64,000 nt of DNA from Paractinoplanes abujensis. Lineage in GTDB: Bacteria > Actinomycetota > Actinomycetes > Mycobacteriales > Micromonosporaceae. The notes beneath the pieces are model-generated. The model had not been told where the DNA came from and did not search any database. It saw nothing but the letters and a program-made list of their open reading frames with translations. Both the position numbers and the translations under genes were made by a program. The DNA lies in contig NZ_JACHMF010000001.1 in the NCBI RefSeq assembly GCF_014204895.1, positions 8,928,001 to 8,992,000 on the forward strand, written 5' to 3'. Of this stretch, positions 36,812 through 42,043 are shown in pieces. Numbering within the stretch: the first letter of the stretch is position 1; every line of letters starts with the position of its first letter.

Positions 36812-37276
36812 TCACGCCGTCCGCAGGGATCCGTCCTCGTCCTTGTCGTCGCCCGCCGCGGCCGTGGCGAACGCGCGGAGCGAACGTACGAGATCCTGGC
36901 GTTCCTCGTCCTGCATGCGGCCCAGCACTTCCTCGAGGGCCTGGCGGCGGCGCTCGCGCAGGTCGTCGAGCAGGCGCCGGGCGGCCGGGGTCAGCAGCAG
37001 CCGCACCTCGCGCCGGTCCCGTGGGTCGGGCACGCGCCGCAGCAGCCCGGTGGCTTCGAGCCGGTCGCACAGCCGGCTGGCCGACGACGGCACCACCTCG
37101 AGCGCCTCGGCCAGGCGGCTCATGTTGGTGTGCCGGGTGTCCGCCACGATCGCCAGCACCCGCAGCTGGGCGGGCGGGACGTTCGTGGCGTGCCCCAGGC
37201 CGGCCGATTCCAGCACCGACACCAGCGCGTCGACCGTCGACTCGACGGCAGCGGCGGCGTCGGAGACCCGGTCCAT
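36812..37276 (-). CDS. MarR-family transcriptional regulator
   Basis: A 154-residue regulator with the winged-helix pattern RHTNMSRLAEALEVVPSSASRLCDRLEATGLLRRVPDPRDRREVRLLLTPA-type core; the DRREV wing arginine cluster is diagnostic. AAGGAAA lies eight bases before ATG 37276. MarR proteins usually repress themselves and an adjacent enzyme until a phenolic or oxidised ligand binds. Here the adjacent enzyme is the LLM oxidoreductase. Confidence 0.88.
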   Translation of the reverse strand: MDRVSDAAAAVESTVDALVSVLESAGLGHATNVPPAQLRVLAIVADTRHTNMSRLAEALEVVPSSASRLCDRLEATGLLRRVPDPRDRREVRLLLTPAARRLLDDLRERRRQALEEVLGRMQDEERQDLVRSLRAFATAAAGDDKDEDGSLRTA

Positions 37277-37348
37277 GGCGGATGTTTCCTTGTTCGTCAG
37301 ACGGAGCACGACCCAGTGCGCCTTGCCACTACCCGCCCGAGCGAAACT

Positions 37349-38491
37349 TCATGCCTTTCCGTGGAGCCAATCCAGGCAGACGATGACGGCGTCGTCTTCT
37401 TGATCGTCGCCGTCGTGGTACTCGCGCAATGCGCGGATCACCGTACCCACCGCCTCGCTCGGCGGCTGCAGCCGCGTCCGGCGCAGGGCTGTGAGCAGAC
37501 CCGTTTCCCCGTACGGGGCCCGGCCGCCCGGGGTGGCCGCGTGCACGCCGTCGCTCACCACGAGCAGCCGGTCGCCCGGTTCGAGTTGCACCTTCTGGGT
37601 CTCGTAGCGGCTGTCGCCGAACATGCCGAGCGGCAACTGTTGTTCCAAACTGACCGCGGTGATGCCGCCCTCGCGCGCGATCAGGGCCCGCGGCGAGCCG
37701 GCGTCGACCGCCTCGATGGTGCCGCCGGCCAGGTCGACCTCGAGCAGCAGGGTGGCCACGTGGGCGGCGCCGCCGGATCGTGAGTAGATCGCGTCGGAGG
37801 CCAGCTCGGCCTGTTCGACGATGCCGGCTCCGGAGCGGCGGGCGTTGCGCATGGCGTTGACCGCGATCGTGGTCAGCAGCGCGGCCTCGATGCCGTCGCC
37901 GTGCCCGTTGAGCACGGTCAGGGTGAGCCGGTCGTCGGTGAGGGCCCAGTCGTAGTGGTCGCCGAACATCGCGTACGCCGGGTCGAGCTGACCCGCGAGC
38001 CGGAACCGTTCGCCGCTCAGCGAGCGGCCGGGCAGCAGGTCCCACTGCAGCTCGGCGGCCATGGTCAGGCGCTGCCGGCGGACGACCTGGCGGTAGCGGT
38101 CGGTGTCCTTGTCGGCCGCGCGCAGGGCCAGGGCCAGCTCGTCCGCGATGTTGGTGATCTCGGCGGCCAGCTCGCTGGTGAGCGTGTCGGTGAGGTCGAG
38201 GCGCAGCACGCCGAGCCGGTCGCCCCAGGTGGTCAGCGGGAGCAGCAGCCGCCGCGATCCGTTGTCGGTCACCGGCTGCTGGCTGCCGAAGCACCGCTGT
38301 TCGAGCGGGCCGCCCGCGGGGGCCTCGGGCTCCATGACGGGCCACAGCGCGCTCAGGGTCAGGTCGCTCAGCAGCAGCTCGACGGCTTTGACGGGGAACC
38401 AGGTGCGCAGATGGTCGGCCACCACCTCGGGGAGGCGATCGGGTGCTGCCGCGCGCAGGTACGAGCCGACGGATGCCGGACGGACGGACAC
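37349..38491 (-). CDS. PP2C (SpoIIE-type) serine phosphatase with GAF-like sensor
   Basis: A 380-residue protein. Residues 1-150 look GAF-like (LLLPLTTWGDRLGVLRLDL); a linker helix (YRQVVRRQRLTMAAELQWDLLPGRSL) then leads to the phosphatase domain. Metal-site motifs GDHYDW, VSDGVHAA and DDAVIVCL are seen, but the usual D-x-x-GHG reads VLNGHG, so one metal-binding Asp seems absent. GTG 38491 has AAGGGA nine bases upstream. It would dephosphorylate an anti-anti-sigma protein in a partner-switch system with the RsbW-like protein encoded upstream. Confidence 0.87.
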   Translation of the reverse strand: MSVRPASVGSYLRAAAPDRLPEVVADHLRTWFPVKAVELLLSDLTLSALWPVMEPEAPAGGPLEQRCFGSQQPVTDNGSRRLLLPLTTWGDRLGVLRLDLTDTLTSELAAEITNIADELALALRAADKDTDRYRQVVRRQRLTMAAELQWDLLPGRSLSGERFRLAGQLDPAYAMFGDHYDWALTDDRLTLTVLNGHGDGIEAALLTTIAVNAMRNARRSGAGIVEQAELASDAIYSRSGGAAHVATLLLEVDLAGGTIEAVDAGSPRALIAREGGITAVSLEQQLPLGMFGDSRYETQKVQLEPGDRLLVVSDGVHAATPGGRAPYGETGLLTALRRTRLQPPSEAVGTVIRALREYHDGDDQEDDAVIVCLDWLHGKA

Positions 38492-38537
38492 TCGATCTTT
38501 CCCTTCCGTGTGAGCCCATGAGGCAATAGTTGCTAGA

Positions 38538-38562
38538 GAGCAAGCATCATATGTGCTTGCTC
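38538..38562. promoter_or_regulatory. Stem-loop between the kinase and phosphatase genes
   Basis: GAGCAAGCA pairs perfectly with TGCTTGCTC around a seven-base loop. It lies in the 92-base gap between the RsbW-like gene and the phosphatase gene, in a locally AT-rich patch. It could attenuate read-through or process the message. Confidence 0.55.
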
Positions 38563-38583
38563 CCCGGGCACCGCCACGAGGTG

Positions 38584-38976
38584 TCAGGCAAACGACTTCT
38601 CGAAATGGATCAAGCTGCCCCGCTTCGGCACGGAGTGCATGCGGACGTTCTCGCCCAGCGCCTTGATCAGGGACAACCCGCGGCCGCTCTCGCTGGAGGA
38701 ACTGGCCGCACCGATCGCGTCGGGGTCGAAACCCTCGCCCGTGTCGCGCACGTCGATCGAGCAGCGGTTGCCGGCCACGTTGAGGCTGACCTCGAAGTTC
38801 TCGGCGCCGTCGGCGTGCCGGACGACGTTGGAGCAGGCCTCGGTGATCGCGATCTCGAGGTCGTCCTGCGCGTCCCGGTCGACCTGCAGGGCGGCGAGGG
38901 CGGAGCGCAGCATCCGGCGGACGGTGGGCACGCTGCCCGCCTCGCGAGGGAGGTCCAGCTGGACTGTCATACGCAT
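38584..38976 (-). CDS. RsbW-like anti-sigma factor/serine kinase (GHKL ATPase)
   Basis: A 130-residue histidine-kinase-like ATPase with the N box (DLEIAITEACSNVVRHA), the G1 motif (DTGEGFD) and the G2 motif (GRGLSLIKAL). These small proteins bind a sigma factor or phosphorylate a STAS-domain antagonist. It lies upstream of the PP2C gene on the same strand and divergent from the membrane-tethered sigma gene. No STAS-domain gene is in the window. Confidence 0.88.
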   Translation of the reverse strand: MRMTVQLDLPREAGSVPTVRRMLRSALAALQVDRDAQDDLEIAITEACSNVVRHADGAENFEVSLNVAGNRCSIDVRDTGEGFDPDAIGAASSSSESGRGLSLIKALGENVRMHSVPKRGSLIHFEKSFA

Positions 38977-39092
38977 GGTTCCCGTGATTCCCGCTCCGCC
39001 CGGGAGCTAATCGTGGCCGAGGCCGCAGCACCTCATCCGATCTTCGCCGAAAAACGTGTTATCCATGGACGGCTTGGGCGTCTCCCTTCCCG

Positions 39093-39138: not shown

Positions 39139-41031
39139 ATGGCGGAACAACCCGACACCTCGGTCGTGATCGCGGCGCGCGACGGCGACCCGGTGGCGGT
39201 CGACCGGCTCGTCGCCGGTTACCTGCCGCTGGTCTACACGATCGTGGGACGGGCGCTGGAGGGGCACGCCGACGTCGACGACGTCGTGCAGGACGTGATG
39301 CTGCGGGTGCTGCGCAATCTGGGCGACCTGCGCGAGCCCGAGGCGTTCCGGTCGTGGCTGGTGGCCATCACGGTCCGCCAGGTCCGGGAGCGTTTCCGGG
39401 CGCGGCGGGGCGCTCCCGAGGCGCTGGTGCACGAGGACGTGCGCGACCCCGGCGCCGACTTCACCGACCTCGCGATCACCCGGCTCGAGCTCAGCGGCCA
39501 GCGCCGCGAGACCGCCGAGGCGACCCGCTGGCTCGACGAGGACAACCGTGAGCTGCTCTCGCTGTGGTGGCTGGAGGCCTCGGGCGAGCTGACCCGCGAC
39601 GAGATCGTCGCCGCCACCGACGTCACCCGGCAGCACGCCGCCGTGCGCATCCAGCGGATGAAGGGCCAGCTCGAGACGGCCCGGGTCGTCGTGCGGGCGA
39701 TCGCCGCCAGCCCGCCCTGCCCCGACCTGCACCTGCTGCTGACCGAGTGGGACGGGCACCCCAGCCCGCTGTGGCGCAAGCGCATCGCCCGGCACACCCG
39801 CGAGTGCCGCCACTGCTCCCCGGCCTGGAACGGGCTGGTCGCGGCCGAGCGGCTGCTGGCCGGCATGGCCCTCGTGCCGCTGCCCGCCGGCTTGGCCGGC
39901 CAGGGCGCGCTGGCCTCCCTCGGTGCCGGTGGGGCAGCGACGTCGAAGGTGGCCGCGGGCGGCATGGCGACGACGAAGGTGGCCGCGGGCGGGGTGGCGG
40001 CGGGCAAGGCGGGCTCCGGCGCGCATCTGGCGGCCAAGGTCGGCTTCAGCCTCTCCCGCAAGGTGCTCACCGCCGCGCTGTCGACCACCGCGGTCGCGGG
40101 CGGCACGGCGGCCGTGGTCGTGGTGCAGAAATCCGACCCGCCGCCGGTCACGACAGCCGCGATCGTCGCCCCGACCACGCGGCCCGCCCCCGTGCCGACG
40201 ACGGTGCGGCCCACGCCTTCCCCGGCCCCGCCCAGCGCCACCCCGAGCCCGAAGCCCAAGCCGACCACCAAGGCGCCGGTCGTGGTCACGGCCAAGGCGA
40301 GCAAGAAAAAGGGCGTCGGCGTCTGGGAGTTCGCCGCCGCCAAGCCGGCTCTCGACGACGTCGGAGCGGCCTGGTACTACAACTGGTCGTCGAACAACAA
40401 GAGCATGCCCGGCCCGGCCGACGTCGAGTTCGTCCCGATGATCTGGGGCAAGAACAACGTCAACGACGCCACCCTGGCCGAGGCCAAGCGTGAGGGTGAC
40501 GTCCTGCTCGGTTTCAACGAGCCGGACATGGACGGTCAGGCCAAGATGACGGTCGAGGAGGCGCTGGCCGACTGGCCGAAGCTGCAGGCGACCGGCATGC
40601 GGCTGGGCAGCCCGGCGGTCGCCTTCGGCGGTGACACCAAGGGTGGCTGGCTCGACCGGTTCATGACCGGGGCCGAGCAGAAGGGCTACCAGGTCGACTT
40701 CATCACCCTGCACTGGTACGGGTCGGACTTCTCCGAGGCCGCGGTCAACCAGTTCCTCGGCTACGTCGACGCCGTGCACAAGCGCTACGGCAAGCCGATC
40801 TGGATCACCGAGTACGGCCTGATGAACTTCGGCGGATCGCCCAAATATCCGACGCAGGCGCAGCTCGTGACGTTCATCGAGGGCTCCACCAAGGGCATGC
40901 AGAAGCGGTCGTTCGTCGAGCGGTACGCCTGGTTCGGGCTGCCCGCCGTGGGCGACAGCGTCGACTTCGGTCTCTATCGTGACGGCAACAGTCCGACGGA
41001 GGCGGGAAAGGCGTACAAGGCCGCGGGGTAA
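39139..41031 (+). CDS. ECF-type sigma factor fused to a membrane-spanning GH128-like hydrolase
   Basis: A single frame of 630 residues. Residues 27-90 form sigma region 2 (DVDDVVQDVMLRVLRNL, EAFRSWLVAITVRQVRERFR) and residues 135-180 form region 4 (LTRDEIVAATDVTRQHAAVRIQRMKG). An anti-sigma-like zinc motif follows (H219-x3-C223-x2-C226). After an Ala/Gly stretch with repeated KVAAGG comes a membrane helix (309-329), then a Pro/Thr linker (335-390). The extracellular domain resembles GH128-type beta-glucanases, with Glu461 in GFNEPD and Glu558 in ITEYG. GGAAGG precedes the ATG. The likely job is to sense or bind a glucan outside and release sigma inside. Similar long ECF fusions are known in actinobacteria, but I know of no established mechanism. 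Confidence 0.9.
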   Translation: MAEQPDTSVVIAARDGDPVAVDRLVAGYLPLVYTIVGRALEGHADVDDVVQDVMLRVLRNLGDLREPEAFRSWLVAITVRQVRERFRARRGAPEALVHEDVRDPGADFTDLAITRLELSGQRRETAEATRWLDEDNRELLSLWWLEASGELTRDEIVAATDVTRQHAAVRIQRMKGQLETARVVVRAIAASPPCPDLHLLLTEWDGHPSPLWRKRIARHTRECRHCSPAWNGLVAAERLLAGMALVPLPAGLAGQGALASLGAGGAATSKVAAGGMATTKVAAGGVAAGKAGSGAHLAAKVGFSLSRKVLTAALSTTAVAGGTAAVVVVQKSDPPPVTTAAIVAPTTRPAPVPTTVRPTPSPAPPSATPSPKPKPTTKAPVVVTAKASKKKGVGVWEFAAAKPALDDVGAAWYYNWSSNNKSMPGPADVEFVPMIWGKNNVNDATLAEAKREGDVLLGFNEPDMDGQAKMTVEEALADWPKLQATGMRLGSPAVAFGGDTKGGWLDRFMTGAEQKGYQVDFITLHWYGSDFSEAAVNQFLGYVDAVHKRYGKPIWITEYGLMNFGGSPKYPTQAQLVTFIEGSTKGMQKRSFVERYAWFGLPAVGDSVDFGLYRDGNSPTEAGKAYKAAG

Positions 41032-41041
41032 CGTCGGCCCC

Positions 41042-42043
41042 ATGATTCGGTTCGGGTACAAGGCCTCGGCGGAGCAGTTCCCGCCGGCGGAACTTCTGAA
41101 GTACGGCGTGCTGGCCGAGGAACTCGGCTTCGACTCGGTCTTCGTCAGCGACCACCTGCAGCCATGGCGGCACGACGGCGGACACGCCCCGGCCGCGCTG
41201 CCGTGGCTGGGTGCGCTGGCCGCCCGGACCGAACGGGTGCTGATCGGCACGAGCGTGCTCACACCGACGTTCCGCTACCACCCCGCCGTGGTCGCCCAGG
41301 CCTTCGCCACGCTCGGCTGCCTCGCGCCGGGGCGGGCGATCCTGGGTGTCGGCTCCGGCGAGTCGCTCAACGAGGTGCCGCTCGGGCTGCAATGGCCCGA
41401 CGGCAAGGAGCGGTTCGCCCGCCTCAAGGAGGCCGTGCTGCTGATCCAGAAGCTCTGGACGGAAGACCGGGTGACGTACGAGGGGCAGTTCTACCGGACC
41501 GAGAACGCCACCATCTACGACAAGCCGGAGACGCCGGTCCCGATCTACATCGGCGCCTCCGGCCCGGCCGCCACCCGCCTGGCCGGGCGCATCTCGGACG
41601 GCTTCATCACCACCAGCGGCAAGGGCCACGCGCTCTACACCGACACGTTGCTGCCCGCCGTCCGCGAGGGTGCCGAGAAGGCCGGCCGCGCCATCGACGA
41701 CCTCGACCTGATGATCGAGGTGAAGGTCAGCTTCGACGACGACATGGACAAGGCCCGCAACGACACCCAGCACTGGGGCGCGTTGGCCCTCTCGCCCGAC
41801 GAGAAGACCGGCGTCGAGGACCCGATCGAGATGCAGCGGCTCTCCGACGCCCTGCCGGTCGAGCGCACAGCCAGCCGCTGGATCTGCTCGTCCGACCCCG
41901 ACGAGCACGTCGGCAAGGTCGCCGAGTATCTCGACATGGGCTTCAAGCACCTGGTCTTCCACGCCCCCGGGCCCGACCAGGAGCGCTTCCTGCGCCTCTA
42001 CTCGGAGAAGATCCTGCCGGAGCTGCGCAAGCGAGCGGCCTAG
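41042..42043 (+). CDS. fgd: F420-dependent glucose-6-phosphate dehydrogenase
   Basis: A 333-residue LLM-class enzyme closely following the FGD1 pattern: FGYKASAEQF at the start, SDHLQPWRHDGGHAP, LIGTSVLTPTFRYHPAVVAQAFAT, GVGSGESLNE, the phosphate-site SGKG, and LVFHAPGPDQERFL at the end. It oxidises glucose-6-phosphate to 6-phosphogluconolactone and reduces F420, feeding reductant to other LLM and nitroreductase-type enzymes. It starts 10 bases after the fusion gene. Its stop overlaps the convergent glycosyltransferase stop by four bases. Confidence 0.93.
   Translation: MIRFGYKASAEQFPPAELLKYGVLAEELGFDSVFVSDHLQPWRHDGGHAPAALPWLGALAARTERVLIGTSVLTPTFRYHPAVVAQAFATLGCLAPGRAILGVGSGESLNEVPLGLQWPDGKERFARLKEAVLLIQKLWTEDRVTYEGQFYRTENATIYDKPETPVPIYIGASGPAATRLAGRISDGFITTSGKGHALYTDTLLPAVREGAEKAGRAIDDLDLMIEVKVSFDDDMDKARNDTQHWGALALSPDEKTGVEDPIEMQRLSDALPVERTASRWICSSDPDEHVGKVAEYLDMGFKHLVFHAPGPDQERFLRLYSEKILPELRKRAA

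Follow-up and report, generated by a model that had tools for sequence, protein, structure and literature searches.

A sigma factor fused to a GH128 domain in Paractinoplanes abujensis, a probable one-protein receptor for extracellular beta-1,3-glucan

The 64,000-nucleotide (nt) stretch of the Paractinoplanes abujensis genome analyzed here, which we call the window (contig NZ_JACHMF010000001.1, positions 8,928,001 to 8,992,000), contains a gene that joins, in one reading frame, a sigma factor of the extracytoplasmic function (ECF) type, a zinc anti-sigma-like (ZAS) segment, a probable membrane segment and a GH128 domain (Table 1). We consider it likely that its product is a one-protein transmembrane receptor for extracellular beta-1,3-glucan, a ligand suggested by the family of the domain together with the predicted target genes. 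Support for this ligand is new because the type of promoter found ahead of the gene recurs in relatives before GH16 and GH64 glucanase genes, and because a site two mismatches away from it precedes a GH16 gene in the organism's own genome. A sequence-only reading of this DNA had named glucan as the signal, a proposal that the promoter type shared with GH16 and GH64 genes now backs for beta-1,3-glucan.

Architecture of the fusion protein

Translation of positions 39139-41031 (forward strand) gives a single stop-free frame of 630 residues, in agreement with the sequence-only reading. In the list of open reading frames the same frame stays open 5' of 39139, giving 833 residues, and we set the start at 39139 because of conservation and the position of the promoter. 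The frame remaining open 5' of the true start is what one might expect if a sequencing error or a misread start had fused two genes, and a frameshift joining two genes had been raised with the initial proposal. This explanation, to which we assign a negligible probability, is refuted by separate assemblies, in which 31 orthologue loci show this architecture in a single frame too (29 orthologue genome loci with a one-frame gene, and L031 and L032, which also hold both domains in one frame). Both Pfam domains are likewise present in all of the best 120 of the 4572 protein matches listed, one row of which is the window protein itself; the organism names among these listed matches are Actinoplanes and close genera, all actinobacterial, as are those of the 31 orthologue loci.

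The N-terminal part of the protein is predicted to be an ECF sigma factor, having regions 2 and 4 and lacking region 3. Besides the Pfam match to region 2, the NCBIfam model TIGR02937 (sigma70-ECF) matches residues 20-180 at 60.6 bits, above its cut-off of 42.9. No Pfam region-4 model matched the 630-residue protein at E <= 1, and region 4 is called because of the NCBIfam match over residues 20-180 and the helix pattern of a structure model of the sigma and ZAS parts; the two regions had been recognized in the sequence-only reading as well. This model, predicted with a local distance difference test score (pLDDT) of 80, recovers ECF sigma factors, sigmaE included, in Foldseek and VIA-align searches, with rows that cover mainly residues 1-191. 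The root-mean-square deviation of the fold match over both sigma domains is 15-20 Å, so the relative placement of the two domains is uninformative. A full-length structure prediction from close orthologues was discarded (pLDDT 51).

Conservation of the remaining parts was assessed in an alignment of 32 sequences (A1) that includes the window protein. The ZAS segment exhibits a zinc site of the pattern C194-x24-H219-x3-C223-x2-C226, whose four ligands are invariant in 32/32 sequences of A1 and in 27/27 ZAS segments of proteins that share the same N-terminal part (the chassis) and carry several kinds of ectodomain, non-GH128 ones included; the HxxxCxxC motif of the sequence-only reading is part of this four-ligand pattern. 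Mean conservation in A1 is 0.91 for sigma region 2, 0.955 for region 4, 0.82 for the ZAS segment, 0.52 for the Pro/Thr linker (which had been noted before and is seen at residues 332-387) and 0.85 for the GH128 domain. Between the ZAS segment and the membrane segment sits a variable cytoplasmic linker, with a conservation of 0.28 as against 0.74 for the membrane segment and its flank; residues ~309-331 are a probable membrane segment. Sequence and conservation together thus back the proposal that sensor, anti-sigma-like segment and sigma factor lie on one chain.

As judged from its sequence, the C-terminal part (residues 388-630) is a domain of GH128, a beta-1,3-glucanase family. The Pfam model Glyco_hydro_cc (GH128) matches residues 409-626 with an E-value of 2e-52 and 178.5 bits (cut-off 21), and the domain aligns to PDB 6uaq, which we take to be AmGH128_I, at 281 bits and 55% identity, with the same catalytic positions. 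The 6uaq protein was crystallized as an isolated domain, unlike the sigma-fused domain of the window. Both candidate glutamates of the sequence-only reading, E461 and E558, are invariant in 32/32 sequences of A1 and in 36/36 aligned sequences, and E558 aligns to the position occupied by Ala in 6uas and by Gln in 6ufl. Three further residues, N460, H525 and Y527, are invariant in 32/32 along with this pair. By our own mapping, based on motif and spacing, they would correspond to residues of another GH128 structure in which, according to the accessible part of PMC10956234, N167, E168, H245, Y247 and E272 act at the -1 subsite or in catalysis.

A promoter motif shared with glucanase genes

The fusion gene is preceded by a putative promoter, TGTTATC-N15-CGTCTCC, and the spacing and form of TGTTATC-N15/16-CGTCTCC (hereafter the strict motif) fit those of ECF promoters; its position points to putative autoregulation. 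A wide pattern, [TGTTAT(C/T) or GGTTATC]-N15/16-[C/A/G]GTC[T/C]CC, is found upstream in 32/32 genes (the window gene and its 31 orthologues), TGTTATC followed by CGTC in 24/32 and the strict motif in 21/32, the motif ending 32 to 76 nt ahead of the start codon across the 32 genes. Shuffling the window yielded 0.02 matches on average, with a match in 2 of 100 shuffles.

Across 67 genomes of the same genus, the strict motif occurs at 91 sites in 56 genomes, compared with one site for the reversed control. We classified all 91 downstream stretches, and 85 of the sites precede members of five families: sigma-GH128 (48), SARP (19), GH16 (10), DUF1996 (7) and GH64 (1). The GH64 target (L156) encodes a protein with GH64 and CBM6 that starts 64 nt downstream of the site, while all 10 GH16 targets carry GH16 and ricin-type lectin domains. 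GH64 is named "Beta-1,3-glucanase" in Pfam; GH16 comprises several activities, and we label these GH16 proteins beta-1,3-glucanases by family and context. In genome G030, a sigma-GH128 gene (Pfam) and the GH64 gene diverge from a short stretch that they share and that holds a motif copy on each strand: TGTTATCGGCGCCACCGGCAGGCGTCTCC reads towards GH64, and TGTTATCCCGGCCCCCGCGCCACGTCCCC reads towards the sigma gene. Here location, in addition to motif, links the receptor with a beta-1,3-glucanase. The ten strict GH16 promoters (L119, L126, L172, L184, L189, L193, L204, L208, L212 and L220) also contain, between -35 and -10, the palindrome GGTTCCGGAACC, which looks like a repressor operator within the ECF promoter.

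Eleven of the 67 genomes are without the strict motif. One of them, G028, is the only one of the 67 without GH128, a coincidence that we count for the receptor reading. The other ten have GH128, and nine of these carry a variant (AGTCTCC, GGTCTCC etc.) before the fusion gene; a first scan of the ten upstream regions with the CGTC core missed most variants, and it was the wide pattern that found nine of the ten. GH128 is present at E <= 1e-30 in 66/67 genomes, by a search that alone shows no sigma fusion, and a test of motif against gene presence or absence within the genus is almost powerless because nearly all genomes carry the domain. In G049, more than 1 kb separates a self-type promoter (L279 / L173) from the sigma-GH128 gene, a distance that looks like the result of an insertion between them.

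The shorter form TGTTATC-N15/16-CGTC has 58 sites in 18 of the 24 genomes searched (reversed control, 2). Among 50 such sites examined, from the genus and from the organism's own genome, 24 end in CGTCTCC, 4 in CGTCCCC and 22 otherwise. The CGTCCCC sites (L109, L148, L116 and L113) precede fusion genes in two cases and a SARP and a GH16 gene in one case each, and four of the 22 other-ending sites, from four genomes, precede CBM2-GH64 beta-1,3-glucanase genes (L112, L118, L127 and L137).

In the organism's own 9.33-Mb genome the shorter form has three sites and its reversed control none; the N15 strict form with one mismatch allowed finds the same three, with one for the reversed control. These sites precede the fusion gene, a gene for a SARP of the BTAD/AAA regulator type and a DUF1996 gene, whose product has an N-terminal hydrophobic stretch and is probably secreted. 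The genome has a large set of beta-glucanase-type matches (4 GH64 and 8 GH16), and a GH16-ricin gene (L288), whose product shares 59.6% identity with the reference GH16, carries CGTTATCCGGGGTTCCGGAACCAGTCTCC, two mismatches from strict, 68 nt before its start. The palindrome GGTTCCGGAACC is present at this gene too.

In the wider family, the strict motif was found in 26 of 150 genomes; outside the genus, 19 strict sites were listed and 15 examined. Nine of the 15 lie before chassis sigma genes, five in g28 and four in g16 (blastx of the sigma part, 62-67% identity). Four of these nine genes could be followed further, and by reading a GH128 domain begins in each of the four, scored by Pfam in L229; L237 and L239 end too early to score, and the fourth, L232, is assigned by reading. 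No clear target follows the strict site in two of the 15 examined (L240 and L242).

The chassis also occurs with other ectodomains. Of 17 related loci that share this N-terminal part, 14 have an AbfB ectodomain, two a GH99-like one (L033, just above the cut-off, and L036) and one a CAP domain (L042), and the organism's own genome encodes two further chassis proteins, both with AbfB, an arabinofuranose-binding type of domain. Among the best 120 of 1562 matches listed in a second protein search, the CAP (SCP-like) type appears in Actinospica and Actinocrinis; Micromonospora and Acrocarpospora are further genera with sigma-GH128 proteins. Paralogues raise the question of whether the motif belongs to another sigma factor, an AbfB-type paralogue or an unrelated ECF factor, the GH128 fusion being merely its target. 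Chassis paralogues do reside in the same genome, and some AbfB-type upstream regions hold a related TGTTATG; yet the motif or a variant precedes the fusion gene in 32/32 cases, while TGTTATC-N15/16-CGTC is found in 0/17 paralogue loci within 230 nt before the aligned start, and the own-genome scan placed no motif site near the two own-genome paralogues. We therefore regard ownership by another sigma factor as improbable. The TGTTATG element occurs upstream of three AbfB-type genes (L041, L046 and L066), followed at similar spacing by GGTC in L041 and L046, hinting at a promoter code for each ectodomain type.

Proposed mechanism and competing explanations

We propose that, without ligand, the fused ZAS segment would hold sigma regions 2 and 4 in a closed state at the membrane. 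When beta-1,3-glucan outside the cell engaged the GH128 domain, the ectodomain or the membrane segment would change. The sigma factor would then be freed either by cleavage at site 1 and within the membrane, after which the ZAS remnant would be removed, or by a conformational change; release by proteolysis is plausible. The free factor would then read TGTTATC-N15/16-CGTCTCC promoters, including that of its own operon with the downstream gene fgd (amplification) and, in a combination that depends on the species, those of GH16 or GH64 glucanase genes (or both), a SARP activator and a DUF1996 protein. The cell would in this way mount a glucan attack when glucan of fungal, oomycete or plant (callose) origin is near.

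How the GH128 domain would sense glucan bears on enzymatic gating and leaves the receptor reading itself intact. The sequence-only reading took the intact catalytic pair as a sign of enzymatic sensing; we give even chances to the domain acting as a lectin-like glucan binder in which any catalysis is irrelevant to signaling. RsgI6, with its GH10 ectodomain, offers a precedent in the accessible part of PMC4711584, and binding seems sufficient elsewhere in the family because paralogues on the same chassis carry AbfB ectodomains and SCO4117, in the part of PMC5826349 available, carries a carbohydrate-binding module. However, a pure binder could lose its catalytic residues, and here N460, E461, H525, Y527 and E558 are all invariant in a well-conserved domain. 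The more ambitious proposal is that of an enzyme-gated sigma factor in a plug-in receptor family, in which hydrolysis of beta-1,3-glucan by the protein's own GH128 domain would be the trigger and GH128, GH99-like, AbfB and CAP ectodomains would each come with a lineage promoter code; we advance it tentatively, as unlikely in this full form.

Several observations weigh against the glucan receptor and the targets we assign to it. The best profile match of the ZAS segment in the PDB is weak (anti-sigma factor DdvA, 8rlz, E 0.43), the Pfam scan of the 27 ZAS segments found zf-HC2 in only three (best 0.0015) and not in the window protein's own, and the fold matches described above say nothing on this part. 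The membrane helix of the sequence-only reading stands as a conserved, weakly hydrophobic stretch but not as a clear-cut helix: it is rich in Ala, Gly and Thr, its best 19-mer has a borderline mean hydropathy of 1.64, and L015, alone among the 32 sequences, has its most hydrophobic 19-mer in another place. As for the targets, no exact site precedes any of the 4 GH64 and 8 GH16 matches of the own genome, whose GH64 loci, scanned for motif variants, gave no exact or convincing site. The wide-pattern scan recognized no site upstream of the fusion gene in G032. Six of the 91 strict sites fall outside the five families (L130, L160, L196, L205, L173 and L188, the last of which opens a GH99-like fragment, by reading only), and CGTC by itself predicts poorly, with 18 of the 22 other-ending sites preceding none of these families. 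Outside the genus, the strict motif precedes three ricin-pectinesterase genes in g26 (by Pfam in L234 and L236; L235 is similar) and a gene for a CBM2 protein in g48 (L243), so at that distance it is not exclusive to glucan genes. A pectate-lyase label for L243 was dropped, having been assigned by reading only where Pfam gives just CBM2. All of the target evidence is comparative, and paralogous chassis sigma factors could read some of the sites. Moreover, the 91 sites are not independent events because they share ancestry; one ancestral promoter probably accounts for all 10 GH16 sites, and we estimate about three independent glucanase recruitments (GH16, GH64 in G030, and CBM2-GH64).

Downstream of the fusion gene, fgd is likely on the same transcript; its product scores 466 bits against NCBIfam TIGR03554 (cut-off 420) and matches FGD1 (5lxe) at 1.7e-135. 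A relative is present in 31/31 orthologue loci; its aligned start lies no more than 84 nt from the sigma stop codon in 29 of them and farther away in L031 and L032. Such a receptor-fgd operon would fit a scheme in which glucose from glucan feeds F420 reduction, a possible metabolic coupling. Upstream, relatives of the HATPase, SpoIIE-type and MarR genes are found in 31/31 loci as well; against NCBIfam models of the RsbA/RsbW type the HATPase scores below their cut-offs. In many upstream regions a TTCCCG...CTAATC block faces the HATPase gene and, reverse-complemented, resembles a sigma-B-type promoter.

These constant RsbW/SpoIIE-type neighbors could instead tie the system to an endogenous signal, stress of the cell's own envelope or surface, the glucanase targets being incidental. 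The effect of the ECF52 member SCO4117 on development, described in the accessible part of PMC5826349, would suit such a role. Against this stand the repeated GH16 and GH64 targets and the divergent GH64 pair. To our knowledge, moreover, no actinobacterium has a beta-1,3-glucan wall. We find an endogenous signal quite improbable and continue to prefer extracellular beta-1,3-glucan as the ligand.

Table 1. Coordinates of the fusion gene, its parts, its promoter and the neighboring genes in the window
Feature	Position	Strand	Evidence or remark
Sigma-ZAS-membrane-GH128 fusion gene	39139..41031	+	630 aa; translation, Pfam, NCBIfam
ECF sigma region 2	39208..39408	+	aa 24-90; Pfam Sigma70_r2 2e-13
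ECF sigma region 4	39499..39702	+	~aa 121-188; NCBIfam TIGR02937, mean column conservation 0.955
ZAS segment	39703..39888	+	aa 189-250; ligands C194, H219, C223, C226
Predicted membrane segment	40063..40131	+	~aa 309-331; hydropathy
Pro/Thr/Ala-rich linker, presumed extracellular	40132..40299	+	aa 332-387; conservation 0.52
GH128 domain	40300..41028	+	aa 388-630; catalytic pair E461, E558
Putative ECF-type promoter TGTTATC-N15-CGTCTCC (putative -35/-10)	39057..39085	+	53 nt before start codon
fgd, F420-dependent glucose-6-phosphate dehydrogenase	41042..42043	+	10 nt after sigma stop codon
RsbW/SpoIIAB-like HATPase, divergent	38584..38976	-	Pfam HATPase_c_2
SpoIIE-type phosphatase, start codon uncertain	37349..38521	-	Pfam SpoIIE 1e-34 on longer frame 37349-39031
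MarR gene	36812..37309	-	divergent to sigma gene

Relation to known systems

The architecture is not of a new kind because ECF52/53 fusions are already in print. The accessible portions of PMC8999054 and PMC10766802 describe ECF48/52/53 sigma factors with a C-terminal zinc finger, one or two membrane helices and a large extension, which in some ECF52/53 members carries predicted glycosyl hydrolase domains, in line with the statement of the sequence-only reading that such groups are known from surveys. Proteolytic release, by regulated intramembrane proteolysis (RIP), has already been proposed for these groups in what is available of PMC8999054, and the 2024 review (PMC10766802), in its accessible part, has the predicted glycosyl hydrolase domains still without experimental validation. 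Neither review, to the same extent, reports a demonstrated mechanism for the members bearing such domains, as had been surmised. In open-licence literature, to which our search was confined (subscription papers being outside its scope), we found no paper on the targets of a GH128-fused ECF sigma factor and none linking Actinoplanes, ECF and glucanase; motifs printed in Huang 2015, Pinto 2019 and Santos 2020 may overlap with TGTTATC-N15/16-CGTCTCC.

What we add is a predicted target set for a GH128-fused ECF sigma factor. With beta-1,3-glucan as candidate ligand, the motif-bearing promoter as a reporter, a list of named targets and E558Q as the decisive mutant, sigma release becomes testable. 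If the proposal is true, a single gene would encode a minimal polysaccharide sensor whose ectodomains are swappable, a protein by which a soil bacterium probably reports fungus-type glucan to its genome.

Likened by architecture and described features, the window protein shares with ECF52/53 members the zinc-finger segment and a glycosyl hydrolase domain in the extension, to which it adds a GH128 ectodomain and a predicted glucanase regulon. The closest single comparison is SCO4117 of Streptomyces coelicolor (ECF52), which, in the accessible text of PMC5826349, unites on one chain a sigma factor, a zinc finger, a membrane region, a Pro-rich linker and a carbohydrate module, as here, with putative autoregulation and proposed proteolysis, as we propose for the window protein. 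It differs in carrying a carbohydrate-binding module rather than GH128, in its motif (CSGYN-17bp-SRHA) and in its developmental role. The SigI/RsgI systems resemble the present one in that the glycan module is extracellular, the targets are glycanases and SigI6 is autoregulated; the anti-sigma factor RsgI6 of Clostridium thermocellum has a GH10 ectodomain of very low activity that is adapted to polysaccharide binding (PMC4711584, as far as accessible), and intramembrane RseP and ClpXP steps are described in the available part of PMC12203970. In contrast to the window protein, SigI and RsgI are two separate proteins and belong to other sigma and anti-sigma families. Finally, IutY of Pseudomonas putida is, in the accessible part of PMC8999054, also a sigma factor with a C-terminal extension, activated by RIP, but it serves siderophore signaling in a Gram-negative cell.

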